Shown in pieces: positions 6,643-22,398 of a stretch of 64,000 bases of DNA. A program made the translations under genes and the position numbers. Every line of letters starts with the position of its first letter. Position 1 is the first letter of the stretch. A model generated the notes under the pieces. The model was not told the origin of the DNA. It did no database searches and saw only the letters and a list, made by a program, of their open reading frames with translations. The stretch is from Paenibacillus sp. PL2-23. Its GTDB lineage: Bacteria > Bacillota > Bacilli > Paenibacillales > Paenibacillaceae. The DNA lies in the NCBI RefSeq assembly GCF_040834005.1, contig NZ_CP162129.1:2194001-2258000 (forward strand), written 5' to 3'.

Positions 6643-6678
6643 GAGGAGTATGGAATATAGATACAGGGAGGGCTGAGC

Positions 6679-7593: not shown

Positions 7594-8807
7594 AAATATG
7601 CAAGCTGATTCGAAGGCATTCCTTTCTTGACGCCAGAGTGTTCCGGAAGCAGGCCAGAAGCTTGGCGGCGCTTGGGCATGAGGTTTATCTTCTGGCGCCC
7701 CGATACAATGGGGTGCTGCTGAATGTGAACAAGGCTCCGCTGAAGGATAAGCAATACGAAGCTCCTTCATTCTTGCTGGATCAGGTTACGGTCATGCCGT
7801 ACACGGCCAAGAGCTATTCTTCAGACCTGCAGAAGGCGAAAGCCGAAAAGGCCATGCTGCGCAGCCTGCAGCAGCTGTCGTTGCCGTATCAGCTGGATGG
7901 CTTGCTCGTGAAGGCAAGGGATGCGGGAGCCGACGTCTATCATGCCCATGAGCCGGAAACGCTGTACGAAGCGGTGCAGGCCAAGCGCTATTGGCGCGAG
8001 CAGGGGAGACCGGTCAGCGTAATATTCGACGCCCATGAGCTGGAGAAGGATACACCCTTGCTGCGAGAGCTGATGAAGGAGACCGATCGGCTCATTACGG
8101 TATCGGATCACATCGCCTCCCTATATGCCGCACGGTATCCGCAGGTGCCTGTTGTCGTTATTTATAATTCGCCGAAGCGGCTTGAGCGGCTGGCAGAGCC
8201 GGATATCTCGTCTCCTTTTACTATGGAGCGGCCTATGATCATCGGTTATGAAGGCATGGTGAAAAGGGAGAAGGGCGATCCAGCTCGCATGATTGGCATT
8301 CTGGACAGCTTGTCTCAGGCGGGTCTGCATGTACGGTTCAAAATATTGGGACAAGGCCAGCACGCCTCCAGGGCGGAGCGGGCGCTCATCGATAACCGCC
8401 TTCGTTCACACCCTCTCATCGACTATGCTTGGGTCGACTATGAGAGGCTCGGCGAACAATGGAGCAGCGTGGATGTTGGATATATCTACTTCGACCTTGG
8501 CTCGGAGAATCGAGCCAACGCGCTGCCGAACAAGCTGTTCAGCCTGTTGAACGCCGGCGTGCCCGTGGTTGTGAACGATGCTCCTGCGATGGCGGCTTTG
8601 CTGCGCAAGCATGGCTGCGGGCTTGTGGCGGGACGCAGTCCGTCAGCAGCGGATTATGCCAAGCTGTTTGCGCAGCTGTACCACGACCGACAGCTTCTCG
8701 CAGCCATGCGAAGGCAAGCCCTTGCGGCCATGGATGAGGAGTATGTGTGGGAGAAAATGGAGAAGCGTCTGTATCTGCTGTATCAGGAGCTGGAACGCCA
8801 ACCATAG
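7590..8807 (+). CDS. Glycosyltransferase, GT4 family (GT-B fold)
   Basis: The 405-residue protein has an N-terminal half with the GT4-like HAHEPETLYEAV stretch and a C-terminal Rossmann half with ANALPNKLFSLLNAGVPVVV, where the acidic nucleotide-sugar site is usually found. No membrane segment is visible. It should add a sugar to a lipid-linked or polymeric acceptor in the cytoplasm. The TTG at 7590 is the start: GGAGGA (7577-7582) lies seven bases before it, and it overlaps the TGA of the reductase gene. A strong hairpin ends the operon. Confidence 0.8.
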   Translation: MKICKLIRRHSFLDARVFRKQARSLAALGHEVYLLAPRYNGVLLNVNKAPLKDKQYEAPSFLLDQVTVMPYTAKSYSSDLQKAKAEKAMLRSLQQLSLPYQLDGLLVKARDAGADVYHAHEPETLYEAVQAKRYWREQGRPVSVIFDAHELEKDTPLLRELMKETDRLITVSDHIASLYAARYPQVPVVVIYNSPKRLERLAEPDISSPFTMERPMIIGYEGMVKREKGDPARMIGILDSLSQAGLHVRFKILGQGQHASRAERALIDNRLRSHPLIDYAWVDYERLGEQWSSVDVGYIYFDLGSENRANALPNKLFSLLNAGVPVVVNDAPAMAALLRKHGCGLVAGRSPSAADYAKLFAQLYHDRQLLAAMRRQALAAMDEEYVWEKMEKRLYLLYQELERQP

Positions 8808-8839
8808 AAGCCTGCCGCGATTGTACGCGGCAGGCTTCT
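8806..8839. terminator. Bidirectional terminator
   Basis: AGAAGCCTGCCGCG (8806-8819) and CGCGGCAGGCTTCT (8826-8839) form a perfect 14-bp stem with a six-base loop. It begins inside the stop codon of the GT4 gene and ends two bases from the stop of the convergent epimerase gene. Confidence 0.85.
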
Positions 8840-8840
8840 T

Positions 8841-9914
8841 CTATCCCTCCATATATTGTTCTATTGCATGGCATATCCGCGGGGCTGTTCTGCCATCTCC
8901 GAATACGCTGGGGTGATGCTCCGGCGTGTTCAAGCTGCTGTACGCTTCCCAAATCCTGTTCGTGTCCGCAGCGGCAAGTCGGTTCCAGCCATGGGCCACG
9001 GTCTCGACCCACTCCGTCTCTCGCCTCATCGTGACGCAGGGAACGCGAAGGAGGTAGGCTTCCTTCTGCAGGCCGCCGGAATCCGTTAGCACCGCATGCG
9101 CGTTGCCCGTCAAGTGGAGCATATCCAGATAGGACAGCGGTTCTGTCACAATGAGATTGGACGCCTCCAGCAGCGATTCCATCGTCCACTTGCGAAGGAA
9201 AAAGCGCGCTCTGGGATGAAGCGGAAGCACAACGGGGCGGTCCAGCCGGGCTAACGCTGTTAGAATATGGCGCAGGTTGCTCTCGGAGTCCGTATTTTCA
9301 TTGCGGTGCACCGTCGCAACGTTATAGCGCTTGGGCGACAGTCCCAGACGGCTCAGTATCGTAGATTGCTTCCCGGCGATAGGGCGGAAGGCGAGCACAG
9401 CATCGCACATAATGTCGCCAACCATATGCACGTGTTTGCTGATGCCTTCTCTCCGCAGATTCGCCGCCGCATCATCCGTTGGACAGAACAGGATGGAAGA
9501 CATGTGATCCGTCAGCACGCGATTCGTCTCCTCCGGCATGCGTCGGTTGAAGCTTCTCAGACCGGCTTCGACGTGAGCGACAGGTATGTGCAGCTTCGCC
9601 GCCGCAAGGCTGCCTGCAAGAGTGGAGTTTGTATCGCCGTACACAAGCACCAGATCGGGCGTTTCCCGAATGAGCACCTCTTCTATACCGGCAAGCATTC
9701 TGGCTGTCTGGCTGCCATGCGAGCCAGAGCCTGCTCCAAGCTCAATGTCCGGCGCGGGCAAGCCCAGCTCCTGGAAAAAAACATCCGACAATGATGGATC
9801 GTAGTGCTGTCCGGTATGGATCAGCAGCTCCTGGTGGTGCTGGCGAATCGCTCGGCTAAGCGGAGCAGCTTTGACGAACTGGGGACGGGCCCCAACGACG
9901 GTTGCTATCTTCAA
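8841..9914 (-). CDS. Non-hydrolysing UDP-sugar 2-epimerase (WecB/WbpI type)
   Basis: The enzyme inverts C2 of UDP-GlcNAc, or of UDP-GlcNAc3NAcA in the WbpI branch. Family motifs are GARPQFVKAAP near the N-terminus, GDTNSTLAG, HVEAGLRSFNRRMPEE and TDSGGLQKEA. Start choice: the ATG at 9923 touches its GGGGAGG, whereas the TTG at 9914 sits nine bases from it and gives the family's usual beginning MKIATVVGARPQF. Because WbpA, B, E and D homologues are close by, I favour the WbpI role, but motifs alone do not separate WecB from WbpI. The gene faces the preceding operon and diverges from the next one. Confidence 0.88.
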   Translation of the reverse strand: MKIATVVGARPQFVKAAPLSRAIRQHHQELLIHTGQHYDPSLSDVFFQELGLPAPDIELGAGSGSHGSQTARMLAGIEEVLIRETPDLVLVYGDTNSTLAGSLAAAKLHIPVAHVEAGLRSFNRRMPEETNRVLTDHMSSILFCPTDDAAANLRREGISKHVHMVGDIMCDAVLAFRPIAGKQSTILSRLGLSPKRYNVATVHRNENTDSESNLRHILTALARLDRPVVLPLHPRARFFLRKWTMESLLEASNLIVTEPLSYLDMLHLTGNAHAVLTDSGGLQKEAYLLRVPCVTMRRETEWVETVAHGWNRLAAADTNRIWEAYSSLNTPEHHPSVFGDGRTAPRICHAIEQYMEG

Positions 9915-10033
9915 TACAAACATCCTCCCCTATCATTCGACTGCTTCTCTTACTCTTAGCGTATGACCGGTCCGTCTGGATGGCATATTGCATTCGGCTA
10001 GAGAGGGACCTAATTCGCAAGAATGATAGATTC

Positions 10034-10067
10034 GTCCATAGCAATCTCTCGGCCTATTCATATACTA
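10034..10067 (+). promoter_or_regulatory. Candidate sporulation promoter before the WbpB-type operon
   Basis: CATATACTA at 10059-10067 is identical to the element at 2335 and fits the mother-cell -10 (CATANNNTA). GTCCA starts 25 bases upstream. The -35 match to sigma-E or sigma-K is poor. It lies 44 bases before the start codon. Confidence 0.3.
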
Positions 10068-10110
10068 ATGGAGCGGTAACGTTCGATAGATAAAAAGGAG
10101 GAGGGCGATC

Positions 10111-11163
10111 ATGGAACCATTGCGCGCCGCGATTATCGGATGCGGCCAAATCGCCGGCAAGCATGTCGCTGCGATGGCTGAGCTGGAGGGAGCCCTCACG
10201 CTTGCCGCAGTATTGGACCTGAACGAGAGCAGGCTGCTCCGTTTCGCTGAGGAGTGCAGGCCGATCTATCCGGCTGTTCGGGCTTTCCGCTCAGTTGATG
10301 AGCTGCTGGAGAAGTCGGACGCCGAGCTTGTGGTCATTGCCACAAGCAGCGATTCCCATTCGGAGCTGGCGCTGAAGGCGCTTCGCGCGGGCAAGCATGT
10401 GCTGGTGGAGAAGCCGCTGGCGTTGTCTATGAGAGAAGCGAGAGAGGCCGTCGCAGAAGCGAAGGCGCGAGGGCTGAAGCTGGCGGTGTCGTTCCAGGCG
10501 CGCTATATGCCTCAGCTGAAAGCGATGAAGGCAGCGGTGGAGCACAGCCGGTTCGGCGCCATTGGCCATGGCGTTGTGAAGATGCGTTGGAATCGCAGTC
10601 TCTCCTATTTCAAGGAAAGCCCATGGCGCGAGAGCTGGGCGAAGGGCGGGGGACTGTTCATGAATCAATGCATTCATTATGTGGATCTGCTTCAATGGCT
10701 GCTGGGTCCCGTTCAATCGGTCTACGCGCGAGCCGCCAGCTTCGGACAGGATATCGGAGTGGAGAACACGGGAGTCGCCGTACTAACGTTCCAAAGCGGC
10801 GCGATTGGCTTCATCGAAGCGACAACTAACGCTTATCCAGCCTCCCTTGGCACATCCATCGCGTTATTCGGGGAGAAGGGGTCCGCCGAGCTGGAAGGGG
10901 CGCTGCTGGATAAGGTGGCGCTGTGGCAATTCGCGGAGAAGGACGCTGTGCCGGTGCCGCAGCCTGAGGGCATATCCCATACACCGTTATATCGGGACTT
11001 GGCGAAAGCCATCCGTTCGGGTGCCGGCTCGCTTGTTGAGGCGGTCGATACCCTGCCGGCGCTTGAGATTGTTTTTGCGATCTATCGTTCCATCGCCAGC
11101 GGCGAGGTTGTCAAGCTTCCGCTGAACCAATTCGAGATGAGGGGCATGTCATGGATGGAGTGA
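10111..11163 (+). CDS. Gfo/Idh/MocA oxidoreductase, UDP-GlcNAcA 3-dehydrogenase type (WbpB/WlbA-like)
   Basis: The 350-residue protein has the N-terminal NAD motif GCGQIAGKH (10-18), the EKP signature (Glu100-Lys101-Pro102) and the GGGLFMNQCIHYVDLLQWLLGP stretch (given here in parts: GGGLFMNQCIHYVD, LLQWLLGP) that is characteristic of WlbA/WbpB. These enzymes oxidise C3 of UDP-GlcNAcA to a ketone and regenerate NAD+ with 2-oxoglutarate. It is the first gene of a tight four-gene operon and overlaps the aminotransferase gene by 13 bases, which suits the known coupling of WbpB and WbpE. AAAGGAGGAGG gives a strong ribosome site. Confidence 0.85.
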   Translation: MEPLRAAIIGCGQIAGKHVAAMAELEGALTLAAVLDLNESRLLRFAEECRPIYPAVRAFRSVDELLEKSDAELVVIATSSDSHSELALKALRAGKHVLVEKPLALSMREAREAVAEAKARGLKLAVSFQARYMPQLKAMKAAVEHSRFGAIGHGVVKMRWNRSLSYFKESPWRESWAKGGGLFMNQCIHYVDLLQWLLGPVQSVYARAASFGQDIGVENTGVAVLTFQSGAIGFIEATTNAYPASLGTSIALFGEKGSAELEGALLDKVALWQFAEKDAVPVPQPEGISHTPLYRDLAKAIRSGAGSLVEAVDTLPALEIVFAIYRSIASGEVVKLPLNQFEMRGMSWME

Positions 11164-12272
11164 AGGCGTTGAATATCCCATTAATTGATTTGAGAGCGCA
11201 GTATAAGGAGCTCAAGAAGGAGATTGACGCCGCCATGCGGCGCGTTCTGGACAGCGGCGTCTATATCGGTGGACCAGAGGTGGAGCTTCTGGAGAAGGAA
11301 ATTGCGGCGCTGACGGGAGCGAGATTCGCGATATCCGTAGCGAATGGCACGGACGCGCTGACGCTTGCGCTGGAGGCGGCGGGCATAGGCGCCGGCGACG
11401 AGGTCATTACGACTGCGTTCACTTTTTTTGCTACGGCGGAAGCGATTGTCAGGGTAGGAGCGATTCCGGTGTACGCCGATATTGATACGGCTACCTTCAA
11501 TCTGAATCCGGACGATGTGGAGGCGAAGGTTACGCCGCGGACCAAAGCGCTGCTTCCCGTTCATATATTCGGGCAGCCTGCCGATATGGACGCTCTGCAA
11601 AGCATTGCGGAGCGCCACAATCTGCTCATTATTGAAGACGCCTGCCAGGCGATCGGCGCAGCGTTCAAGGGACGGCCAGTGGGCGCAATCGGAGACATCG
11701 GCTGTATCTCCTTCTTCCCGACCAAAAATTTGGGCGGCTACGGCGATGGGGGCATCGTCGTCACCAACAATGAAGCGATTGCCGATCGTATTCGTCTGCT
11801 CTGCCATCATGGAAGCAGGAGAAAATATTTCCATGAGGAGGTTGGCTATAACAGCCGTCTTGATCCGCTGCAAGCGGCCGCGCTCCGCGTGAAGCTGGGC
11901 AAGCTTCATGAATGGAACGAGCGGAGGCGCGAGGCTGCGGCCTATTACCGCCAGGGACTGGATGGTCTGCCGCTGGAGCTGCCTGCCGATCCGCACGACA
12001 GCCGGCATGTGTATCATCTGTTTGTCGCGCTGACCAAGGATCGAGACCGGCTGGCGGTACAGCTCAAGCGCCATGGCATCTCGACGGGACACTATTATCC
12101 ATGTCCGCTTCACCTGCAGCAGGCCATGCGAGCCTTCGGGATGAAGCGTGGAGATCTTCCCGTTACGGAGAGGATATGCGACCTTTCCTTTGCGCTGCCG
12201 ATGTCGCCCCATCTGACCCGTGAGCAGCAGGACTACATTGCAGATAAGCTGAGAAGATACGCAAGGAGGTAA
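11151..12272 (+). CDS. DegT/DnrJ/EryC1/StrS aminotransferase (WbpE-like)
   Basis: A 373-residue PLP enzyme of the sugar aminotransferase family. Asp163 (IIEDACQ) should hold the PLP nitrogen and Lys192 (FFPTKNLGGYGDGG) forms the Schiff base. In the WbpE role it would transaminate the 3-keto sugar made by the gene before it, with glutamate as donor, to UDP-GlcNAc3NA. GAGGGG lies six bases before the ATG, inside the preceding gene. Neighbouring WbpB- and WbpD-type genes support C3 specificity; the family also holds C4 aminotransferases, which motifs do not exclude. Confidence 0.88.
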   Translation: MDGVKALNIPLIDLRAQYKELKKEIDAAMRRVLDSGVYIGGPEVELLEKEIAALTGARFAISVANGTDALTLALEAAGIGAGDEVITTAFTFFATAEAIVRVGAIPVYADIDTATFNLNPDDVEAKVTPRTKALLPVHIFGQPADMDALQSIAERHNLLIIEDACQAIGAAFKGRPVGAIGDIGCISFFPTKNLGGYGDGGIVVTNNEAIADRIRLLCHHGSRRKYFHEEVGYNSRLDPLQAAALRVKLGKLHEWNERRREAAAYYRQGLDGLPLELPADPHDSRHVYHLFVALTKDRDRLAVQLKRHGISTGHYYPCPLHLQQAMRAFGMKRGDLPVTERICDLSFALPMSPHLTREQQDYIADKLRRYARR

Positions 12273-12278
12273 GGGAGC

Positions 12279-12995
12279 ATGGGACAGCAGGCAGTAATAG
12301 GGCTTCACGCCGTTATCGGCCAAGGCGTTATTATTGGCGAAGGCGCGGTTATTGGCCATCATGCGGTTATCCATGACGGCACCCTCATCGGCAGCGGCGC
12401 GGTCATTCACGATCATGCCGTCATCGGCAAGCTGCCGATGAGGGCCGCCAACTCCGCGACGACAACCGTTGGCGAGGCATTGGCGCCCTCGATCATCGGA
12501 GAAGGCTGCACGATCGGAACGGGAGCGGTCATATACAGGGGGGCGGAGCTGGCGCCGCATGTATTCGTCGCCGATCTGGCTACTGTTCGCGAGAGGGTAT
12601 TCATCGGCAGGAAGACGATTATTGGCCGGGGTGCCGCTATCGAGAACGACTGCCGGATCGGCTCCAATTGCAAGCTGGAGACGAACAGCTATATTTGCGC
12701 ATACTCGGAGCTGGAGGATCATGTATTTGTGGCGCCATGCGCAGCAACGACCAATGACAATTATCTCGCCCGCTCAAGCGCCCGCTTCGGACAATTCAAG
12801 GGCGTGACGATCAAGAGGGGCGGCCGCGTCGGAGCGAATGCCACTATTCTGCCGGGCAGAACGATCTACGAGGACGGCGTTGCGGCCGCCGGAAGCGTCG
12901 TGACGAAGGACATTCCTGCCAGGACGATTGTGGCCGGCAATCCCGCTCGCAAGCTGCGGGACGTGCCGCCGGAGCAATGGCTGGATAACCAGTAA
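12279..12995 (+). CDS. Left-handed beta-helix N-acetyltransferase (WbpD-like)
   Basis: A 238-residue hexapeptide-repeat protein. Repeats of the form [IV]-G-x-x-x-x run almost through its length, with the acetyl-CoA-site part DHVFVAPCAATTNDNY (about 149-164) and the end VVTKDIPARTIVAGNPAR, all typical of WbpD-type enzymes. The predicted reaction is acetylation of the C3 amine to UDP-GlcNAc3NAcA. It begins six bases after the aminotransferase stop and has AAGGAGG overlapping that gene's end. About 50 N-terminal residues (VIGLHAVIGQGVIIGEGAVI) form extra hexapeptide coils that make it longer than the WbpD I know, about 190 residues. Confidence 0.82.
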   Translation: MGQQAVIGLHAVIGQGVIIGEGAVIGHHAVIHDGTLIGSGAVIHDHAVIGKLPMRAANSATTTVGEALAPSIIGEGCTIGTGAVIYRGAELAPHVFVADLATVRERVFIGRKTIIGRGAAIENDCRIGSNCKLETNSYICAYSELEDHVFVAPCAATTNDNYLARSSARFGQFKGVTIKRGGRVGANATILPGRTIYEDGVAAAGSVVTKDIPARTIVAGNPARKLRDVPPEQWLDNQ

Positions 12996-13018
12996 GCGGA
13001 GACGGGAGGAGAACTTAT

Positions 13019-13963
13019 TTGTCCATGCAGCAGCAGCCGAAACAACTGAATGTTCTGATGCTCGCCAAGCGATTTGCGGATGCCATGCCGAAGCATCAGC
13101 ATAAATTCGATATGCTGGAGGCGATTGGCGAGGCGGCCAAGGTCCACTATTGGACCAAGGACGGGGATATCCTTGATATTTTGTCCCGCCTCGACTTTAA
13201 GCCGGACGTGATTTTCCATTACGACTTCGAGTGGAGGAACGCCTTCGCCCCCCGCATACGCAATCTGGATCGCGTAGATATCCTGAAGGCCTGCTATGTG
13301 CTTGATATCCATTACAATCCCAAGGAGAGACGGGAGTACTTCGACCGCGCCGCCAAGCCCGACATCATCTTCTCCGCGAGCAAATATCCGTTCCTGAACG
13401 CGTTCCCCGAATGCGCCTCGCGCTTCGAGTGGCTGCCCTTCGGCATTAACAAGGAGCTGATCAAGGATTACGGTCTGCCGAAGGACATCCGCTTCTCCCT
13501 AATGGGGCTGCTGGAGGACAAATACCCCTTCAGGCGGGCGGTCGCGTCCCGTATGCGGGGCGTGGAAGGCTTCGTCCAATTCCAGCATCCCGGCCATCGG
13601 ACGGCGGATCGGCCCGGCTTGTTCGTCAAGGAGGCTTATGCAAGAGCGATCAACCGGTCGATGATCTCGTTCACCTGCGGGAGCACCCTGCGCATACCGG
13701 TCGCGAAGTTCTTGGAAATTCCGGGCTGCCGCGCTCTGATGCTGGCTGAACCTAACCGGGATGTGGAGGAGCTGGGCTTCCGGGACGGGGAGCACTTTGT
13801 CGCTTGCGACAGCGGGAATATAAGCAGCAAGGCATTGTATTACGCGGCAGCGGACGAGGAGAGAGAACGGCTGACGGAAGCGGGCTTCAGATGGGTTCAC
13901 GAGGCGCATACCAACGAGGTTCGAGCCCGGCAGTTTGTGGACGCCATCAGGGCGAAATTATAG
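13019..13963 (+). CDS. CgeB-like glycosyltransferase (Glyco_trans_1_2 domain)
   Basis: The 314-residue protein ends with RIPVAKFLEIPGCRALMLAE...LGFRDGEHFV, the pattern of the Glyco_trans_1_2 domain found in the spore-maturation protein CgeB and in other GT-B transferases. No membrane segment is visible. The TTG at 13019 has GGAGGA eight bases upstream; an ATG six bases further in is the alternative. It is the last gene of the WbpB-E-D operon and probably uses the nucleotide sugar made there or one from the neighbouring operon. The donor and acceptor are unknown. The CgeB likeness fits a spore-coat role but does not prove it. Confidence 0.72.
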   Translation: MSMQQQPKQLNVLMLAKRFADAMPKHQHKFDMLEAIGEAAKVHYWTKDGDILDILSRLDFKPDVIFHYDFEWRNAFAPRIRNLDRVDILKACYVLDIHYNPKERREYFDRAAKPDIIFSASKYPFLNAFPECASRFEWLPFGINKELIKDYGLPKDIRFSLMGLLEDKYPFRRAVASRMRGVEGFVQFQHPGHRTADRPGLFVKEAYARAINRSMISFTCGSTLRIPVAKFLEIPGCRALMLAEPNRDVEELGFRDGEHFVACDSGNISSKALYYAAADEERERLTEAGFRWVHEAHTNEVRARQFVDAIRAKL

Positions 13964-13965
13964 GT

Positions 13966-14035
13966 CGCCTGCCGGCAGGCGCAGCCTGACGCGATATGTG
14001 CCGGGGGTAGAAGGGCTCCCGGCGCACCTATTTTT
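13966..14035 (+). terminator. Palindrome and terminator hairpin after the CgeB-like gene
   Basis: A perfect 16-base palindrome CGCCTGCCGGCAGGCG lies at 13966-13981. About 15 bases on, GTGCCGGG pairs with CCCGGC-GCAC with a two-base bulge (about 13998-14027), followed by TATTTTT at 14029-14035. The second hairpin with its T-run should end the operon. Confidence 0.65.
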
Positions 14036-14045
14036 GCCAATGGGA

Positions 14046-14074
14046 TTGACCATGAATGCCGCATTCGATAAAGT
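14046..14074 (+). promoter_or_regulatory. Candidate sigma-A promoter of the GT-C fusion gene
   Basis: TTGACC (14046-14051) and TAAAGT (14069-14074) are 17 bases apart, about 70 bases before the start codon. The -10 is only a fair match. Confidence 0.35.
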
Positions 14075-14145
14075 GATTATGAGTTTGATAACTTTTGACA
14101 GCCATAATCGTTAGTCAGCGTACTTGGAAAGGATCTGTGATCACA

Positions 14146-17100
14146 ATGTGCAAAGGCTATTCCCGACTGACCGCGATACTGCTGGCGCTGCTTCTGCTGC
14201 TGGCGATCGTGCCGGGGACAAGAAGCTTGGCGGCGGACAATTTGCTGAGCAACGGAAATTTCGAGTTGGCGGATGGCAGCTTGCCCAGCGGCTGGACGAT
14301 CGAAGCGTGGGTGAAGGATGAGGGCGTATCCCATTACGGCCTGGATCAGAACGAGGCTTATGACGGAGAGCGGGCCGCATACATACATAATACGAGCGAC
14401 AATCACGCGCGGCTTGTGCAGACCATTAAGGTGAAGCCGAATACGAGCTACCGGTTCTCGGGCTACGTGAAGACGGAGGGAGTTCGCCAAGACGCGACGG
14501 GAGCTCACTTATACGTGGACGGCACCGCGCTGTACTACCCGGAGTTCAAGGATACGAACGGACAATGGGCGCACCTGGAGTTTTACGGCAAGACGGGACG
14601 CGAGCAGAAGGAATTGCTGTTCGGCGTCAGTCTTGGCGGATATGGCAGCCTGAATGAGGGACGGGCCTGGTTCGATGCCGTTGAGGTAGCTGAAGTGGCG
14701 AACGCGCCTGATGGAGCGGAGCTGTTCGCGCTGGATCAGACGGGTTCGGGCGGCGAGGAGGAGCAGAACCACAAGATATCGATCCTGAGCACGCTTATCT
14801 ATGCCGGGCTGTTCGCCTCGCTGTTCGCCGTTGTTTATTCCCGGCTGCTGCGCGGCGAGGAACGGCTGGGCAGAGGGAAGGGACGGGGCGCCGCTCTGCC
14901 GATTCTGCTTGCGGCGGGCTTTGCTGTCGCGCTTACGATTCGCTTGTATATCGCGGCAGGCCATGGCGGCTATGCCAATGATGTGGCCCTGTTCATGCAT
15001 TGGTCCAATCAAGCCGTGCTGGAAGGCATAGCGGGCTTCTACCATACCGATATGTTCGTCGATTATCCCCCAGGCTACATCTATGTGTTGTTCGCGCTGG
15101 GACATATCAAGAGCTGGCTTGGCATAACATCCGGCTCAGGGGCTGAGCTGCTGCTGTACAAGCTGCCCGCTATTCTCGCTGATCTTGGAGCGGCGGCTCT
15201 AATCTACCGGACGGCTCTGAAGAAGCTGGGAGGCGCGCCGGCGGTTGGCCTTGCGCTGCTGTGGCTGTTTAATCCGGCCGTAATACTGGATTCTGCGGCA
15301 TGGGGGCAGGTCGACTCCGTGTTCGCGTTTGTGCTGACTCTATCTATATGCGGCATCGCGGAGCGCCAATTCGGGCGGGCTTCCGTCTGGTATGCCATTG
15401 CTGCGCTGATTAAGCCGCAGGCGTTCATCTTTATGCCTGTGCTGCTGCTTGCGCTCTGGCTCAGCAGGAAGTGGAGGAATGTGGCCATCAGCGCCTATTA
15501 TGGTTTTGGCACGTTTCTTGTGCTTGCGCTGCCTTTCTTCTGGAGCGGCAGCGGACTGGGAGGACTGTATGAGCTGTATAAGGGTACGTTGTCCTCTTAC
15601 CCGTACGCGACTTTAAACGCGTTCAACCTCTATTCGCTAAGCGGCTCCAATTGGAAGCCGATTACGGAGCAGTGGCTTTTTATGCCATTTGGCTATTGGG
15701 GCAACCTGTTCATTGTGGCGGCTGTCGTGCTGGCGGTGCTGTATGCGCGGCTTGGAAGGGGACGTAATGAAGGGGACCGCTCGTTCTATATAGCGATGGT
15801 GCTGATCGCCGTTGTCTTCCTGCTTGTGACCAAGATGCACGAGAGGTATATGTTCCCGTTCCTGCTGCTGAGCTTGTTCGCTTATGTGCAGTCGAAGGAC
15901 CGGCGAATGCTTGGGCTGTTCCTCGGGTTTACCCTCACGAATTTCGTGAATATGAGCTATGTGCTGGCTTATAGCGCCTATACAACCAATGTGCCGAACG
16001 ATGGCATTGTGCTGCTATGCGCGATCGCCAATTTGAGCCTGCTGCTGTATATGCTGTACGTAGGCTACGACCTGTACGGGCAAGGACGTCTGAAGGCTAT
16101 GAAGCCTCTGACGGCGAATGACCGAAGGGCGGCCGATGATAGGCTGTTAGCGGCTTTCAAGCGAAAGGATACGATAGAAGAGCGCGCTTCTGGCAAGAAT
16201 AGGATGAAGCGCAAGGATTGGTGGTGGATGGGCGGCTTGACCGGGGTGTACGCCTTCGTCGCGCTGGTTAATCTGGGCTCGTTCAGCAGTCCCGAGTCGG
16301 TATGGCAGCCCAGCCGTACCGGGCAGAGCTTCTATATTGATCTAGGGGCGCCTGTCGCGCTGGACCGCGTGACGACCTTCGGCGGCGTTGGCACCGGCAA
16401 GTATACGCTGGAATTCGGGAACGAGCCAGGCCAGTGGAGCAACAAGCTGGAGGTGGACAGCAGCCATGTCGCGGTATTCGCCTGGAAGGTGCATCCGGCT
16501 TCGTTCGAAGCGCGGTACATGAAGCTGACGGCGACTCAGCTTGGCTTCTCCATTCATGAGCTGGCTCTCTATGCCGCCGGCAGCCAGGAGCCGCTTGCCA
16601 TCGCAGATGTGAACGACGATGAGGCGAAGGAGGCGAAGCGGGGTGCAGTCGCCAATCTGTTCGACGAGCAGTCGCTGGCGCAATACGAGCACAGCTTTCG
16701 CAAGGGCAGCTATTTCGATGAAATCTATCACGCGCGCACCGCGTCGGAGAATATCGAAGGCATTGTCGCTTACGAGAATACGCATCCCCCGCTGGGTAAA
16801 ATCATTATAGCGGCGGGCATCAAGCTGTTCGGGCTGAACCCGTTCGGCTGGCGGATTGCGGGCACGGCACTTGGCATCGCCATGATTCCGATTCTGTACA
16901 TGACCGCAAGGCGCCTGTTCGGCAGAACGTCCTTTGCCGCGCTGGCAGCGGGTCTGCTGGCGGCCGATTTTATGCATTTCACCCAAACCCGCATCTCGAC
17001 TATCGACGTGTACGGCGTATTCTTCATCATGCTGATGTTCCATTTCATGAACAAATACGCGTCGCTCAGCTTCTACAAGGCGAAGCTGGCCGCTACGCTT

Positions 17101-17973
17101 GTGCCGCTGGGACTTGCGGGTCTGTTCTTCGGACTAGGCGTCGCTTCCAAATGGATTGTATTGTATGGCGGAGCGGGACTTGCGATTATGCTGGCCCTCT
17201 CGCTATGGGACCGCTATCGTGAATATTTGGCTGCAAGGCGGAAGCTTCGTGAGGACGGAGGCAAGGCGGAAGCGTTCGATGCTGAAGCGCTCAAGCGAAT
17301 CGTATCGGTATTCCCGCGCTATACGCTGGCAACTCTCGCCGCGTGCCTGGTGTTCTATATCGCGGTTCCCGCCGGGATCTACGCCTTGTCGTACCTTCCC
17401 ATTCTGTCGGTGATGCAGGGCGGCTACACCTGGAAGGCGTTAGTGGATTATCAGGTCAATATGTACAACTATCACAGCAATCTTGTATCGGCGCATCCGT
17501 TCTCCTCGTCATGGTGGGAGTGGCCCTTCATGAAGCGTCCAGTCTGGTATTATTCCGGGGACGGGCTTGCGCCGGAGCTGAAATCGACAATAGTGGCTAT
17601 GGGCAATCCGGTCATCTGGTGGTTCGGGATCGCGGCGATGCTGCTCACGATCGCCATCAGCGTGAAGCGCCGGGACAAAGCGATGTATATGGTATGGATC
17701 GCTTTTCTGGCGCAATATGTGCCGTGGATGCTTGTGCCGCGCGAGACGTTTCTTTACCATTATTTTGCCATGGTGCCGTTTATGATTCTGAGCATTGTGT
17801 ATGTGCTGGGCGTTGCAGAGGAGCGAAGCCCGTTCTTCCGCAAAGCTCGGATCGGCTATGCGGCTGCCGCTGCGGCGATGTTCATCCTGTTCTACCCCGC
17901 GCTGTCGGGCATGATTGTGCCGAAGTGGTATGTGGATGTCCTGCTTCGCTGGTTCCCGAGCTGGGTATTCTAG
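14146..17973 (+). CDS. Double GT-C (PMT/GT39-type) glycosyltransferase fusion with two carbohydrate-binding-like domains
   Basis: From the ATG at 14146 the protein has about 1275 residues. Order: signal peptide or first membrane helix (1-30); a CBM4/9-like beta domain starting NLLSNGNFE (32-180); a first multi-helix GT-C unit (about 213-645) with NDVALFMHW (278-286) and DYPPGYIYVLF (306-316); a basic linker; a discoidin-like domain (about 720-830); and a second unit (855-1275) with the PMT signature SYFDEIYHARTASENIEG (Asp858-Glu859) and NTHPPLGK. PMT enzymes move mannose from polyprenyl-phosphate-mannose to an acceptor outside the membrane. The gtrB-like gene just downstream could supply the lipid-linked sugar. 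A TTG at 14095 and a GTG at 14137 are other possible starts; the ribosome site AAAGGA is weak. Confidence 0.8.
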   Translation: MCKGYSRLTAILLALLLLLAIVPGTRSLAADNLLSNGNFELADGSLPSGWTIEAWVKDEGVSHYGLDQNEAYDGERAAYIHNTSDNHARLVQTIKVKPNTSYRFSGYVKTEGVRQDATGAHLYVDGTALYYPEFKDTNGQWAHLEFYGKTGREQKELLFGVSLGGYGSLNEGRAWFDAVEVAEVANAPDGAELFALDQTGSGGEEEQNHKISILSTLIYAGLFASLFAVVYSRLLRGEERLGRGKGRGAALPILLAAGFAVALTIRLYIAAGHGGYANDVALFMHWSNQAVLEGIAGFYHTDMFVDYPPGYIYVLFALGHIKSWLGITSGSGAELLLYKLPAILADLGAAALIYRTALKKLGGAPAVGLALLWLFNPAVILDSAAWGQVDSVFAFVLTLSICGIAERQFGRASVWYAIAALIKPQAFIFMPVLLLALWLSRKWRNVAISAYYGFGTFLVLALPFFWSGSGLGGLYELYKGTLSSYPYATLNAFNLYSLSGSNWKPITEQWLFMPFGYWGNLFIVAAVVLAVLYARLGRGRNEGDRSFYIAMVLIAVVFLLVTKMHERYMFPFLLLSLFAYVQSKDRRMLGLFLGFTLTNFVNMSYVLAYSAYTTNVPNDGIVLLCAIANLSLLLYMLYVGYDLYGQGRLKAMKPLTANDRRAADDRLLAAFKRKDTIEERASGKNRMKRKDWWWMGGLTGVYAFVALVNLGSFSSPESVWQPSRTGQSFYIDLGAPVALDRVTTFGGVGTGKYTLEFGNEPGQWSNKLEVDSSHVAVFAWKVHPASFEARYMKLTATQLGFSIHELALYAAGSQEPLAIADVNDDEAKEAKRGAVANLFDEQSLAQYEHSFRKGSYFDEIYHARTASENIEGIVAYENTHPPLGKIIIAAGIKLFGLNPFGWRIAGTALGIAMIPILYMTARRLFGRTSFAALAAGLLAADFMHFTQTRISTIDVYGVFFIMLMFHFMNKYASLSFYKAKLAATLVPLGLAGLFFGLGVASKWIVLYGGAGLAIMLALSLWDRYREYLAARRKLREDGGKAEAFDAEALKRIVSVFPRYTLATLAACLVFYIAVPAGIYALSYLPILSVMQGGYTWKALVDYQVNMYNYHSNLVSAHPFSSSWWEWPFMKRPVWYYSGDGLAPELKSTIVAMGNPVIWWFGIAAMLLTIAISVKRRDKAMYMVWIAFLAQYVPWMLVPRETFLYHYFAMVPFMILSIVYVLGVAEERSPFFRKARIGYAAAAAAMFILFYPALSGMIVPKWYVDVLLRWFPSWVF

Positions 17974-18007
17974 CGATGCAATTAGATCAAGGAGAAGGAG
18001 TCTTGCC

Positions 18008-19018
18008 ATGAATGAGAAGCGCGTCACCTACAGCGTAATCGTCCCGATGTACAACGAAGAAGAAGTCATTGAGCATACGTACGGCAGGCTGAAGGCTGTT
18101 ATGGATACGGCGGACAAGCCTTATGAGCTCATATTCGTGAACGACGGAAGCAAGGACCGTACCGTGCCGATTATGAAGGCGATTGGGGAAGCCGACGCCA
18201 ACGTGCGAATGATCGACTTCTCCCGCAATTTCGGCCATCAGATCGCCATCTCCGCGGGCATGGATTATGCGCGAGGAGACGCGATTGTCGTCATCGACGC
18301 CGATCTTCAGGATCCTCCCGAGGTCATCCTGGAGATGATCGAGAAGTGGAAGGAAGGCTATGAGGTGGTGTATGGCCGCAGATTGAAGCGGAAGGGCGAG
18401 ACCCTATTCAAGAAGCTGACGGCACTGGCATTCTATCGGCTGCTCAAGAGCATGACAAGCGTCGATATTCCGCTGGATACCGGAGACTTCCGGCTGATCG
18501 ACCGCAAGGTATGCGATGTGCTGCGGGGCCTCAAGGAAAAAAATCGGTTCGTGCGCGGATTGATCAGCTGGATCGGCTTCCGGCAGACGAGTGTGGAGTA
18601 CGTTCGCGAGGAGAGGTTCGCCGGAGAAACCAAATACCCGCTTAAGAAGATGGTCAGCTTCGCCTTGGACGGCATTACGAGCTTCTCTTACAAGCCGCTC
18701 AAAATCGCCAGCTACCTCGGCTTCGCCTTGTCGGTCGGCGGGTTTGCTTATCTGCTCATCGTCATCTCCCAGCGCCTCTTCACGGATACAACGGTAGAGG
18801 GCTGGACGACGATTGTGGCGCTTAATCTGCTGTTCAACGGGATTATTCTCATTCTGCTCGGCGTTATCGGCGAATATATTGGGCGTATATACGATGAATC
18901 CAAAAACCGTCCGCTCTATATTGTTCGGGAGGTGACCGGACATGGGGGAGATGAAGACGCCCATAACGAAGGTGGGGAGCGTCCGAAGCATGCCGAACGC
19001 GAGAAGCAAATGGTATAA
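18008..19018 (+). CDS. GT2 polyprenyl-phosphate glycosyltransferase (GtrB/DPM1-like)
   Basis: A 336-residue GT-A protein with two C-terminal membrane helices (about 235-258 and 270-297). Motifs are FVNDGSKDRT, the metal-binding DADLQDPPE and DTGDFRLIDR, all standard for GtrB/Dpm1-type enzymes that load a sugar onto undecaprenyl phosphate in the cytoplasm. AAGGAGAAGGAG precedes the ATG at 18008. It lies 34 bases after the PMT-like fusion and overlaps a gtrA-like gene, so the three probably work together: GtrB loads the carrier, GtrA may flip it, and the GT-C enzyme uses it outside. Confidence 0.88.
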   Translation: MNEKRVTYSVIVPMYNEEEVIEHTYGRLKAVMDTADKPYELIFVNDGSKDRTVPIMKAIGEADANVRMIDFSRNFGHQIAISAGMDYARGDAIVVIDADLQDPPEVILEMIEKWKEGYEVVYGRRLKRKGETLFKKLTALAFYRLLKSMTSVDIPLDTGDFRLIDRKVCDVLRGLKEKNRFVRGLISWIGFRQTSVEYVREERFAGETKYPLKKMVSFALDGITSFSYKPLKIASYLGFALSVGGFAYLLIVISQRLFTDTTVEGWTTIVALNLLFNGIILILLGVIGEYIGRIYDESKNRPLYIVREVTGHGGDEDAHNEGGERPKHAEREKQMV

Positions 19019-19448
19019 GCTGATGGGCAACCGGACAACCCTCAAGCAGCTTGTGAGCTTCGGCGCCATCGGCGCGCTGAATACGGGGATCGATGTGGCT
19101 GTGTTTGCTCTGCTTGTTTTTTTTCACATGCACTACGCGGTTGCCCAGCTTGTCGCATACAGTGCCGGAATGGCGAACAGCTATCTCCTGAACCGGGCGA
19201 TTACTTTCCGTACCGAGACCGCGAAGCGGGACAAGGCGGTGGAGCGAAGAAGGAGACTGCGGTTTCTCCTGTGGAATGGCAGCACGCTGGCGTTGTCCAT
19301 CGCGCTGCTCGCCGTGACCCGGCATTGGCTGATGTGGAACGAGCTGGCGGCCAAAGCTGTTGTGACGGTGCTGATCGTCGGGATTAACTTTTATGGAAGC
19401 AAAAAGTGGGTATTCGCCGTGAAGCCGGCGGCCAAGATGGGAGGTTGA
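18942..19448 (+). CDS. GtrA-family membrane protein (putative lipid-sugar flippase)
   Basis: A 168-residue protein with four predicted membrane helices after a basic N-terminus of about 35 residues. LKQLVSFGAIGALNTGIDVAVF opens the GtrA domain (given here as LKQLVSFGAIGALN and TGIDVAVF), and NSYLLNRAITFR and FYGSKKWVF are family patterns. GtrA proteins are thought to move undecaprenyl-phosphate sugars across the membrane. The start at 18942 has GGGAGGTGA seven bases upstream and overlaps gtrB by 77 bases in another frame, an unusually long overlap. An internal ATG (MGNRTT, about 19023) would avoid the overlap but has a poorer ribosome site. Confidence 0.8.
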   Translation: MGEMKTPITKVGSVRSMPNARSKWYKLMGNRTTLKQLVSFGAIGALNTGIDVAVFALLVFFHMHYAVAQLVAYSAGMANSYLLNRAITFRTETAKRDKAVERRRRLRFLLWNGSTLALSIALLAVTRHWLMWNELAAKAVVTVLIVGINFYGSKKWVFAVKPAAKMGG

Positions 19449-19450
19449 AC

Positions 19451-20182
19451 ATGAACAAGCTGAGCGCCTGCGGGTTGGTCGTTATCGGCCTCTTCATTAT
19501 AGCGTTTCCCAAAGCGAGTGAATGGTACGAAACGAGGCAGGAGCAGAGTCTGCTGGCTGAGTGGGAGGAAGCTGCCGCGCAGGAGGAGGCGAACCGGGAG
19601 GCAGTAGAGCAATACGACAATCTGACGAATTTGTTCGCGGAGACGGAGTTTGAGGCTGCGGCAGATCCGGAGGCTGAGTTGACCGGGGTGGCTGAAGGGG
19701 AGTCCACCACGCCGTCATCGGGAGAGGCATCGTCTACAGCAGCCGCACCGTCCTCCGCGACGCCGGCTCAAGCCAAGCAATCCCCGAAGCCGCAAGCGAT
19801 TGCCACCATCCAAATTCCGAGCATCGACCTGCTGTTGCCCGTGCTGGAAGGCGCCACGGAGAGCAACATGAAGGTAGCGGCGGTGCACCTGAAGGAAACG
19901 ACGAAGCTTGGCGAGGTCGGCAACGCCGCCATCGCCGCTCATCGCATGCGGATCAAAGGGCGGCTGTTCAATCGTCTGGACGAGGTGGAGGTAGGCGACA
20001 GTATCACGATCAAGACGAAGACGGAGACCTTCCAGTACAAGGTATACAAGGTTTCAATTGTGGAGCCGAGCGACGTATCCGTGCTGCGCTACAACAATAC
20101 GGACCGCCGGCTGACGCTTATTACATGCGATCCCCTCATCAATCCGACCCATCGCCTCATCGTTCACGCCCAGATGGAATAA
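19451..20182 (+). CDS. Class D sortase
   Basis: The 243-residue protein has one N-terminal membrane anchor (7-22), a long Glu-, Ala- and Ser-rich stalk (30-115) and a C-terminal sortase domain. The catalytic residues are His164 (AAHRM), Cys226 (TLITCDP) and Arg235 (THRLIV). Sortases cut LPxTG-like sorting signals and attach proteins to the cell wall; class D types are common in spore formers. GGGAGG sits before the ATG at 19451, three bases after gtrA. No protein with a sorting signal was found in the window. Placement with the glycosyltransferases and gerE suggests surface work, perhaps during sporulation. Confidence 0.88.
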   Translation: MNKLSACGLVVIGLFIIAFPKASEWYETRQEQSLLAEWEEAAAQEEANREAVEQYDNLTNLFAETEFEAAADPEAELTGVAEGESTTPSSGEASSTAAAPSSATPAQAKQSPKPQAIATIQIPSIDLLLPVLEGATESNMKVAAVHLKETTKLGEVGNAAIAAHRMRIKGRLFNRLDEVEVGDSITIKTKTETFQYKVYKVSIVEPSDVSVLRYNNTDRRLTLITCDPLINPTHRLIVHAQME

Positions 20183-20218
20183 AGACGGTTCTAATGCGCC
20201 CAAATTGCACATAGACAG

Positions 20219-20247
20219 CACCATCGGTTAGCCCCCTTCATATGATA
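20219..20247 (+). promoter_or_regulatory. sigma-K promoter of gerE
   Basis: CACC (20219-20222), a 16-base spacer and CATATGATA (20239-20247) match the sigma-K consensus mACm-N16-CATANNNTA exactly. In Bacillus subtilis gerE is a sigma-K gene, so promoter and gene support each other. Confidence 0.8.
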
Positions 20248-20310
20248 ATTTGACTGTATCCCTTGCCCTTGTTACACCACAAAATCCCGAGCAAGGAGGG
20301 GTGACAAACT

Positions 20311-20535
20311 TTGAAGGGAAGCGACCATAAGAGCAAGTTTTTATTGACCCATCGCGAACGAGAGGTATTCGAGCTGTTGGTGCAGGACAAAACGACAAGA
20401 GATATTGCGCAGCTATTGTTTATCAGCGAGAAAACCGTCCGCAATCATATCTCCAATGTTATGCAAAAGTTGAACGTCAAAGGTCGTTCGCAAGCGGTTG
20501 TCGAGCTAATTAAGCTTGGGGAGTTACAAATCTAA
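20311..20535 (+). CDS. gerE: Spore-coat transcription regulator GerE
   Basis: GerE is a LuxR-type DNA-binding protein made late in the mother cell; it switches coat genes on or off together with sigma-K. The 74-residue product has exactly the length of the Bacillus protein and nearly the same core: LLTHREREVFELLVQDKTT (11-29) and ISEKTVRNHISNVMQKLNVK (38-57, the helix-turn-helix). There is no receiver domain. The start is a TTG with AAGGAGGGGTGA upstream. A sigma-K promoter precedes it and a hairpin follows. I am sure of the family and nearly sure of the orthology. Confidence 0.95.
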   Translation: MKGSDHKSKFLLTHREREVFELLVQDKTTRDIAQLLFISEKTVRNHISNVMQKLNVKGRSQAVVELIKLGELQI

Positions 20536-20601
20536 CATAACAAGGTCTCTCCATTCTCGTTTATCAGGGCTACAGCCCTTCCACTGTAATAAGAAAAGTC
20601 A

Positions 20602-20625
20602 AGGTAGCATATCTCTATGCTACCT
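20602..20625. terminator. Hairpin terminator after gerE
   Basis: AGGTAGCATA (20602-20611) and TATGCTACCT (20616-20625) form a perfect 10-bp stem with a four-base loop, followed by a T-rich CTTTCTT. AAGAAA upstream makes it usable on both strands. Confidence 0.75.
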
Positions 20626-20778: not shown

Positions 20779-21144
20779 ATGCGCAAAGATGCTCCTTCGG
20801 AAATAAACTCGTTAACTCTTCAAGAAAAACAAGCTTTAATCCATCTGCAGCACAGACTTGCGCTCGTCTTTCAACTAAGTGAGTTGATTATTTTCGGTTC
20901 CAAAGCAAGGGGAGATTATGATGAGTGGTCTGATCTTGATATATTGGTGCTTGTAGAGGACGAAAAAAATTGGCATAATCGTGAACTGCTCTCCGATATG
21001 GTTTATGAAATTTACTTGCAGTATGATACTCAATTGACGTGTATACTGGAAAACGCTGCTGAATGGCGGTCAGAAAAAGATTGCATATGGCTCCCCCTAA
21101 AAGACAATATTGTTGAGGAGGGGATTGTTATTGCGATATCTTAA
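20779..21144 (+). CDS. MNT-type minimal nucleotidyltransferase (antitoxin-like)
   Basis: A 121-residue protein with the polymerase-beta nucleotidyltransferase signature: Gly40-Ser41 in FGSKARGDYDEWSDLDILV, and Asp52 and Asp54 as metal ligands. Such MNT proteins pair with HEPN proteins, and in the studied MntA/HepT systems the MNT partner adds AMP to the HEPN toxin and silences it. AAGGAGGG precedes the ATG. The HEPN reading frame starts at 21131 inside this gene. The pair is visibly more AT-rich than its neighbours and has its own promoter and terminator, which suggests acquired DNA. Confidence 0.82.
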   Translation: MRKDAPSEINSLTLQEKQALIHLQHRLALVFQLSELIIFGSKARGDYDEWSDLDILVLVEDEKNWHNRELLSDMVYEIYLQYDTQLTCILENAAEWRSEKDCIWLPLKDNIVEEGIVIAIS

Positions 21145-21528
21145 AGCGATGGAAATAATGGTAAGCAAGGCAGAACAGAAATTCAAGCTTGCTGATTTTC
21201 TTTTTCCTCTGGGATGTATGATAGTTGTGTTAGCGCTTTGTATTATTCCGCTTTTCAATATGTGACAGCATTGATTTTAGCAAGAGGCGAAAAGGTTAGC
21301 AACAAACACACTTATGTCCGGGGTTGGGTCAACAAAAATCTTGGCGCAGCAGGTCTTCTATCAGTTGAACTTGTAAAGCTTTATAATCGATTAATGGATC
21401 ACCGAGCAGAAGCCGATTATAGTGCCACAGTTACATTTTTGAAGGAAGATGTTGCCGAGTTGCTCAATCAGGTCAGAACTTTTAACCAAGCCATCGTAAA
21501 GATCATGGAGCAGGAAGCTGCCAAATGA
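21131..21528 (+). pseudogene. HEPN-domain (UPF0332-type) partner of MNT, frameshifted
   Basis: Two frames together make one HEPN protein. The first starts at a TTG at 21131 with GGAGGGG (21117-21123) seven bases upstream and reads ...VSKAEQKFKLADFLFPLG; the second, open from about 21211 to 21528, reads MYDSCVSALYYSAFQYVTAL... and ends QAIVKIMEQEAAK. Joined, they give the usual HEPN order: a SKAEQKF helix, then YDSCVSALYYSAF, then NRLMDHRAEADY. The change of frame near 21209-21213 fits the loss of one base (GGATG where GGAATG is expected). No slippery heptamer is visible, so a mutation is more likely than programmed frameshifting. The exact RX4HXY toxin motif is absent. The ATG at 21214 alone would give 104 residues. 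Confidence 0.65.
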
Positions 21529-22184: not shown

Positions 22185-22230
22185 AGCGGCAAACCTGCTG
22201 CAGGCACGAGGCCTGCAGAGGTTTGCCGCT
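22185..22230 (-). terminator. Terminator of katX
   Basis: On the minus strand AGCGGCAAACCTCTGCAGGC (22230-22211) pairs with the arm at 22205-22185 with a single extra base, giving a stem of about 20 bp with a five-base loop. TTTTT follows at 22185-22181. It lies between katX and the Crh-like gene. Confidence 0.8.
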
Positions 22231-22389
22231 ACTCAGCATGCCGCTACTCAGCATGCCGCTACTCAGCATGCCGCTACTCAGCATGCCGCTACTCAGCATG
22301 CCGCTACTCAGCATGCCGCTACTCAGCATGCCGCTACTCAGCATGCCGCTACTCAGCATGCCGCTACTCAGCTTACCGCTACTCAGCAT
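22225..22389. repeat. Eleven-copy 15-bp tandem repeat (minisatellite)
   Basis: Eleven head-to-tail copies of GCCGCTACTCAGCAT fill 22225-22389. The first nine are identical; copy ten ends GCTT and copy eleven begins with A. The array sits between the katX stop codon and the katX terminator. The first copy shares its GCCGCT with the terminator arm, so the array probably grew from the edge of that arm by slippage. As 15 is a multiple of three, it is open in several frames (LLSMP or LSSGM repeats), but no start or ribosome site supports translation. Confidence 0.95.
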
Positions 22390-22398
22390 GCCCCTTCG

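Follow-up and report, generated by a model that had tools for sequence, protein, structure and literature searches.

The soil bacterium Paenibacillus sp. PL2-23 carries, on a 64,000-nucleotide stretch of its complete 5.48-Mb genome (contig NZ_CP162129.1, positions 2,194,001 to 2,258,000 of the forward strand; this whole stretch is the window, to which all coordinates below refer), a gene whose 1275-amino acid (aa) product holds two GT-C glycosyltransferase units in one chain. We call it the tandem gene (14146-17973, + strand) and its two units, in order, U1 and U2. Based on our findings, we propose, with a probability of about 0.58, that the product is a membrane O-glycosyltransferase with two active sites, building a short glycan stepwise on unfolded Thr/Ser-Pro-rich stretches of exported proteins. 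The proposal is built on the computed domain order, folds and invariant acids of the protein, on its operon, on the wide occurrence of the fusion and its secondary fission, and on a link to Thr/Ser-Pro-rich proteins. A more specific scheme, which we hold tentatively and consider slightly less probable than its contrary, is that an initiating and an extending GT-C site in one chain work one after the other on a shared Thr/Ser-Pro-rich acceptor: this would be an assembly line for bacterial mucin-like stalks, whose gene lies together with those for donor supply and a sortase and, in some genomes, with that for the acceptor. To our knowledge, the structurally studied GT-C enzymes have one active site per chain. 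No description of two GT-C units in one chain was found in the literature searched, a coverage that left out most subscription journals.

Two different GT-C units in one polypeptide

The reading frame (14095-17973, + strand) contains no internal stop and is conserved as a single frame in relatives. The ATG at 14146 is the likely start, preferred because it gives a plausible signal peptide: residues 1-28 (14146-14229) read as a signal peptide or anchor, hydrophobic from 10 to 25, that would likely be cleaved near SLA-AD. In the AlphaFold2 model, residues 6-20 form a helix, and confidence is low thereafter. Next comes a β-sandwich resembling a carbohydrate-binding module (CBM), at residues 32-182 (14239-14691). 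Its Pfam match, CBM_4_9 at residues 32-122, scored 28.5 bits in the whole-protein search and 28.5-32.9 bits overall, over the cut-off of 25.9, and Foldseek matched its fold to CBM16, CBM4 and CBM22 modules.

U1 (14785-16161) begins with an extra transmembrane helix (residues 214-235) and continues as a GT87/ALG6-like GT-C module up to residue 672. The Pfam GT87 model matched residues 307-558 at 34 bits against a cut-off of 25; the U1 of loci L118 and L080 also passed this cut-off, and that of L076 missed it. For the N-terminal half, Foldseek returned ALG6 (3.3e-7), PimE (2e-5), GPI mannosyltransferase I (GPI-MT-I, 6e-5) and ALG3 (4e-4), all GT-C enzymes whose acceptor is a sugar. Comparison of a profile of this half with sequences gave PIG-M at 1e-8, over the partial stretch 341-456, and ALG6 at 0.004. 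When U1 is aligned with ALG6, its D279 pairs with the Asp in GDFEAQ, its DYPPG with DYPPL and its HERY with HEK; U1 has the ALG6/GPI-MT-I fold together with its Asp, DYPP and HE motifs. Catalytic residues were compared in an alignment of 93 sequences, full-length or concatenated, down to about 35% identity. Five acidic residues of U1 (D279, D306, D346, D390 and E566) are invariant in all 93. Of these, D279 (14980-14982), in outer loop 1, is the putative catalytic base; D306 belongs to the DYPPG motif (15061-15075); and D279, D306 and E566 are the putative catalytic acids. From its fold class and its repeated pairing with GT39 enzymes, U1 may be an extender of glycans.

These data bear on the idea that U1 has no transfer activity of its own and serves as a donor-binding or structural partner, like the second subunit of a protein O-mannosyltransferase (PMT) dimer. 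PMTs do work as dimers (PMC12705809), and the tandem could mimic such a dimer in fixed form. Yet the five acids of U1 are kept without exception, and its best fold matches are not PMTs, which makes this explanation very improbable.

U2 (residues 689-1275, 16210-17970) is a GT39/PMT module. Pfam PMT matched residues 855-1080 (47.9 bits; cut-off 22.7) and PMT_4TMC residues 1096-1273 (77 bits; cut-off 32.4), and the Foldseek search with the tandem model found, through U2, Pmt4 at 7e-13 and Pmt1-Pmt2 at 2e-8. The stricter NCBIfam Pmt equivalog NF058602 gave 89.7 bits, below its cut-off of 800. The putative catalytic acids D858 and E859 of the FDE motif (16717-16722) are invariant in the 93 sequences, as are H880, P881, P882 and D954; the HPPLGK motif (16783-16800) is invariant or nearly so, and both FDE and HPP align with those of Pmt4 and Pmt1. 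Outer loop 1 of U2 holds a discoidin/CBM32-like domain (residues 712-812, 16279-16581). The Pfam F5_F8_type_C match there (residues 718-798) fails its cut-off, with 18.7 against 28.2 bits, but the weak assignment is supported by the Foldseek match to CBM32 modules (E about 0.01, probability 1.00); in a stand-alone relative (L121), F5_F8_type_C passes with 39.3 bits. The MIR domain, a feature of eukaryotic PMTs, had no Pfam match in the tandem protein.

The two units are joined by a Lys/Arg-rich linker (residues 673-688, 16162-16209) with a low predicted local distance difference test score (pLDDT), which is probably cytoplasmic. AlphaFold2 was run on two homologue alignments, of 62 and 70 sequences: residues 1-700 reached a pLDDT of 88.5 and a predicted template modelling score (pTM) of 0.80, and the tandem from 205 to 1275 reached 89.4 and 0.86. 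Reached over 1071 residues, this pTM speaks for U1 and U2 being placed in a defined way relative to each other, as far as a model can tell. Since their folds, profiles and motifs differ, U1 and U2 look like members of two distinct GT-C types, not like the outcome of a recent internal duplication. An earlier note, written from the letters of this DNA, had claimed two GT-C units and two carbohydrate-binding-like domains in one chain; Pfam, Foldseek and the intact putative active-site acids bear this out, the motifs NDVALF, DYPPG, FDE and HPPLGK are present as it named them, and the acidic residues of the first unit are indeed kept across homologues.

Fusion, secondary fission and separate genes

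The fused gene is a single frame in about 80 genomes, nearly all of Paenibacillus (Paenibacillaceae), and also in two clostridial metagenome-assembled genomes (L076 and L080) at 35-37% identity. Within the family, 297 genomes were sampled; 182 have some match, and many of the matches are full-length. Four genomes (L114-L117) instead have two adjacent genes, for products of about 682-751 and 592-607 aa, divided in the region of the inter-unit linker, where the stop of the first and the start of the second overlap or lie close to each other. In the trees of U1 and U2, these split sequences are nested inside the fused clade, with support of 99 and 100 in the Shimodaira-Hasegawa-like approximate likelihood ratio test. 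Because both halves nest in this way, we take the split to be a later, secondary fission, and the split genes argue that each unit is able to exist on its own. Long branches lead to the divergent fused forms of other lineages (L137, L151, L155); the deep branches of the U2 tree and the placement of L137 and L155 are accordingly uncertain.

The earlier note had named a sequencing error joining two genes as a danger. The adjacent genes of L114-L117 could be read in that sense, and artefacts do happen: the giant frames of 2743-2934 aa in L111-L113, which appeared to hold three units, proved to be stretches of masked N downstream of the genuine gene and were rejected. However, the stop-free single frame recurs in many independent assemblies, and the split form, with its close or overlapping junctions, lies within the fused sequences. 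We therefore give a sequencing or frameshift artefact next to no chance.

Outside Paenibacillaceae, U1 and U2 are mostly separate genes, each often with a GT2 glycosyltransferase and GtrA alongside. There are stand-alone U1 genes accompanied by GT2 and GtrA, and stand-alone U2 genes accompanied by GT2. This is consistent with the earlier statement that most bacterial enzymes of this kind hold a single GT-C unit, within the genes found here. In three loci (L161, L162 and L167), the two are adjacent in the order U2 (GT39), then U1. In L161, the pair is flanked by genes for enzymes of the architectures GH9-CBM3-GH5 and CBM3-GH48, with Thr-Pro linkers, and L162 and L167 have the same layout. In L158, L159 and L166, U1 lies in loci with a YkcB_C-type GT39, GT2 and GtrA; L166 additionally carries a GalE-like epimerase.

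Since stand-alone versions of both exist, each unit can serve its own pathway. U2 might thus act on proteins and U1 on a cell-wall or teichoic polymer, with the fusion sharing donor supply and expression only; GT-Cs of three-component glycosylation systems often modify wall polymers. Against such parallel action, U1 recurs with a GT39 partner, be it U2 or the YkcB_C type, in the six loci just named, and the halves stay adjacent after fission. We consider it unlikely.

The operon

Four genes follow one another on the same strand: the tandem gene, a PgfS/YkcC-like GT2 (18008-19018; Glycos_transf_2, 1e-35), a GtrA-like flippase candidate (18942-19448; GtrA_DPMS_TM, 6e-27) and a class C/E-like sortase (19406-20182; Sortase, 8e-35). 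The GT2 is a probable polyprenyl-phosphate sugar synthase; its best NCBIfam match is the PgfS model, at 305 bits, below the equivalog cut-off of 500. By a strict count, GT2 is present at 81 of 92 related loci, GtrA in most, and the operon sortase in 60 of the 76 loci that could be scored. The downstream GT2-GtrA pair pointed out before is real and conserved and could supply lipid-linked sugar. With a GT2, a small flippase and a GT-C in one locus, the operon has the composition of a three-component glycosylation system. Its sortase is the sole sortase match in the entire genome; it had been overlooked in the earlier note, which likewise missed the likely acceptors, the split seen in one subclade and the pairs of separate genes in other loci.

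Consensus scans place a strong terminator-like stem-loop before the operon (13997-14026, + strand), with a T run and a 12-bp stem that includes 8 GC pairs; a second terminator-like hairpin (20602-20625, + strand) closes the unit. Between these sites, from 13997 to 20625, there is no gene for a UDP-sugar epimerase. A 74-aa LuxR-type (GerE) DNA-binding protein is encoded at 20311-20535, between the sortase gene and the hairpin, and is a possible regulator of the operon.

Candidate acceptor proteins

Inspection of the host genome revealed two proteins with the LPxTG motif, both with Thr/Ser-Pro-rich stalks. The larger (2040 aa) combines a Thr-Pro stalk and LPKTG with five Collagen_bind domains and six SdrD_B domains; the smaller (349 aa) has LPQTG and a stretch that is 90% Ser/Thr/Pro. 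Thr-Pro repeats occur at four places in the genome, two of which are these LPxTG genes. In a sample of 32 LPxTG frames of the genus (the 30 best matches and the two of the host), 25 reached at least 50% Ser/Thr/Pro in some 60-aa window, compared with 7 of 757 control frames.

In nine loci, a gene for a Thr-Pro-repeat protein lies directly 3' of gtrA on the same strand. LPKTG is visible in five of these (L044, L059, L070, L071 and L233), and in the other four (L022, L023, L052 and L058) the frame or contig breaks within the repeat. In the divergent lineage, the tandem gene adjoins a gene for a Thr-Pro-rich secreted protein in L120 (with alpha-1,3-glucanase domains) and in L122 (GH18 with SLH domains). 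Thr-Pro repeats are frequent in some genomes, so that their adjacency is weak evidence there. Four sampled genomes (G045, G200, G244 and G290) have a high-scoring sortase beside an LPxTG gene outside the GT-C operon.

The N-terminal CBM is missing from the tandem genes of some relatives (L062-L069, L072, L073, L038 and L124). Genomes with such genes tend to be without the operon sortase and LPxTG proteins: counts of CBM presence against operon sortase were 59/11/1/5, and LPxTG matches over the cut-off were found in 31 of 33 CBM-bearing and 3 of 9 CBM-less genomes. On the tree, the CBM-sortase association comes down to five independent contrasts (2.4 in the same direction, 0 in the other), and a sign test is not significant; for this reason we keep the link as a hint only. 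In L155, two separate CBM-like genes (8227-9828 of that locus) stand just before a CBM-bearing tandem gene, giving three related domains in a row.

Proposed mechanism and comparison with known systems

We suggest a plausible mechanism for stepwise glycosylation by the tandem protein. GT2 would load a sugar onto polyprenyl phosphate, and GtrA would help the loaded lipid reach the outer face of the membrane. There, U2 would put the first sugar on Thr or Ser, probably aided by the CBM32-like domain in its loop 1, and the ALG6/GPI-MT-like U1 would then add the next sugar to the glycan started by U2, while the N-terminal CBM-like domain would keep the acceptor or product close to U1. In the host, the most likely acceptors would be the stalks of the two LPxTG proteins, to be fixed to the wall by the operon sortase. 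The tandem gene and its operon look like an assembly line by which surface and secreted proteins would receive short sugar chains on their Thr-Pro-rich stalks. The addition of two sugars in turn, suggested in the earlier note, fits the anatomy of a sugar-acceptor-type U1 next to a PMT-type U2. Catalysis by both units, their order of action, the use of one shared donor, and the identities of sugar and acceptor are inferred.

The predicted role of U2 as a protein O-glycosylation enzyme is well supported by homology, by fold and, through analogy, by a deletion in Caldicellulosiruptor bescii. In that species, the GT39 gene Cbes_1864 belongs to a four-gene cluster of the glucan degradation locus. 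Loop 1 of its product holds a CBM-like domain, and deletion of the gene abolished the glycosylation of secreted enzymes with alternating Thr/Pro linkers (PMC6151902). The loci L161, L162 and L167 are Caldicellulosiruptor-like, and in them the U1 homologue is the gene next to the GT39. This system differs from that of the window in that U2 and U1 are separate genes in this order, that the acceptors are cellulases rather than sortase-anchored proteins, and that no sortase was seen there.

The Pgf system of Streptococcus mutans is a second parallel. Its genes are PgfS-PgfM1-PgfE-PgfM2; PgfS and two membrane proteins modify the LPxTG adhesins Cnm and WapA, PgfM2 is described as similar to PgfM1, both being PMT-like, and when PgfM2 is lost the product is partly modified (PMC5856776). 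One PgfS-type GT2 serves two membrane enzymes there, and the operon in the window likewise has one GT2 and two GT-C units, although the window GT2 scores under the PgfS cut-off. The LPxTG adhesins that Pgf modifies have Thr-rich regions, and one of them, Cnm, has a collagen-binding domain; such proteins exist in the host genome. Unlike the tandem, the two membrane proteins of S. mutans are separate and the operon has an epimerase; GtrA and a sortase are not reported there.

A different order of events could be drawn from U1, whose nearest folds (ALG6, ALG3, PimE and GPI-MT-I) act on lipid-anchored glycans: U1 would extend a lipid-linked sugar or build a lipid-linked disaccharide, U2 would transfer it en bloc to protein, and the fusion would channel the lipid intermediate between two units modelled in a defined position to each other (pTM 0.86). 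PMT-type (GT39) enzymes, however, use monosaccharide-phosphate lipids, and the operon is without a phosphoglycosyltransferase gene. In addition, the partly glycosylated product seen on loss of PgfM2 suggests stepwise addition in S. mutans (PMC5856776), although PgfM2 may not correspond to U1. We regard en bloc transfer as distinctly unlikely and favour the stepwise mechanism.

Other known enzymes resemble single parts of the tandem. The fungal GT39 enzymes Pmt1-Pmt2 and Pmt4 share the fold and the FDE and HPP motifs of U2, and their acceptors are Ser/Thr-rich (PMC7759382, PMC12705809). U2 differs from them in having a discoidin-like domain in loop 1 instead of MIR and in being fused to a second GT-C. 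ALG6 (GT57), PIG-M/GPI-MT-I (GT50) and PimE (GT87) share the fold and motifs of U1, which is unlike them in being bacterial, in carrying an extra N-terminal transmembrane helix and a CBM, and in being fused to a PMT unit. As in three-component systems, GT2 and GtrA adjoin the GT-C gene, but here one chain has two GT-C active sites and a likely protein acceptor.

Several observations weigh against the stepwise mechanism. U1 is also found as a stand-alone gene with no U2 beside it, so that its acceptor does not have to be a product of U2. The divergent tandems of L118-L130 have neither GT2 nor sortase as neighbours. The operon in the window is without a Thr-Pro-rich gene, no Thr-Pro DNA pattern being present within the window, and the candidate acceptors lie elsewhere in the genome. 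Wall-spanning stalks rich in Thr and Pro are a common trait of LPxTG proteins at large, and part of the Ser/Thr/Pro excess is expected from this alone. Finally, the assignment of L161, L162 and L167 to Caldicellulosiruptor is inferred from gene content.

Protein O-glycosylation by a GT39 enzyme with a GT2 partner is already known. What the tandem adds is that natural fused, split and single-gene versions make glycan hand-over between successive lipid-dependent GT-Cs testable, by point mutation and by exchange of fused and split forms. The findings also point to an O-glycosylation pathway, widespread and little studied, by which Paenibacillaceae would modify wall-anchored adhesins and secreted enzymes that degrade polysaccharides.

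Other features of the window

Upstream of the tandem gene, a nucleotide-sugar/glycosyltransferase cluster (5296-13963) encodes a UDP-sugar dehydrogenase, an epimerase, a GT4, a UDP-GlcNAc 2-epimerase, a Gfo/Idh protein, a DegT aminotransferase, a hexapeptide acyltransferase and a CgeB-like glycosyltransferase, a content that suggests the synthesis of a diacetamido-mannuronate-type sugar. We considered it as part of the system and rejected it as core, because only about 7-11 of the related loci have it beside the tandem gene and because the terminator-like hairpin at 13997-14026 intervenes. Downstream of the operon, an MNT-type nucleotidyltransferase and a HEPN protein are encoded as a pair (20779-21528) in a patch of low GC content (43.5% against about 56%), which looks like an acquired toxin-antitoxin pair. 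Further on (22224-22392), between a short open reading frame and a catalase gene, a 15-bp unit is repeated in tandem in 11 copies with 97% matching.

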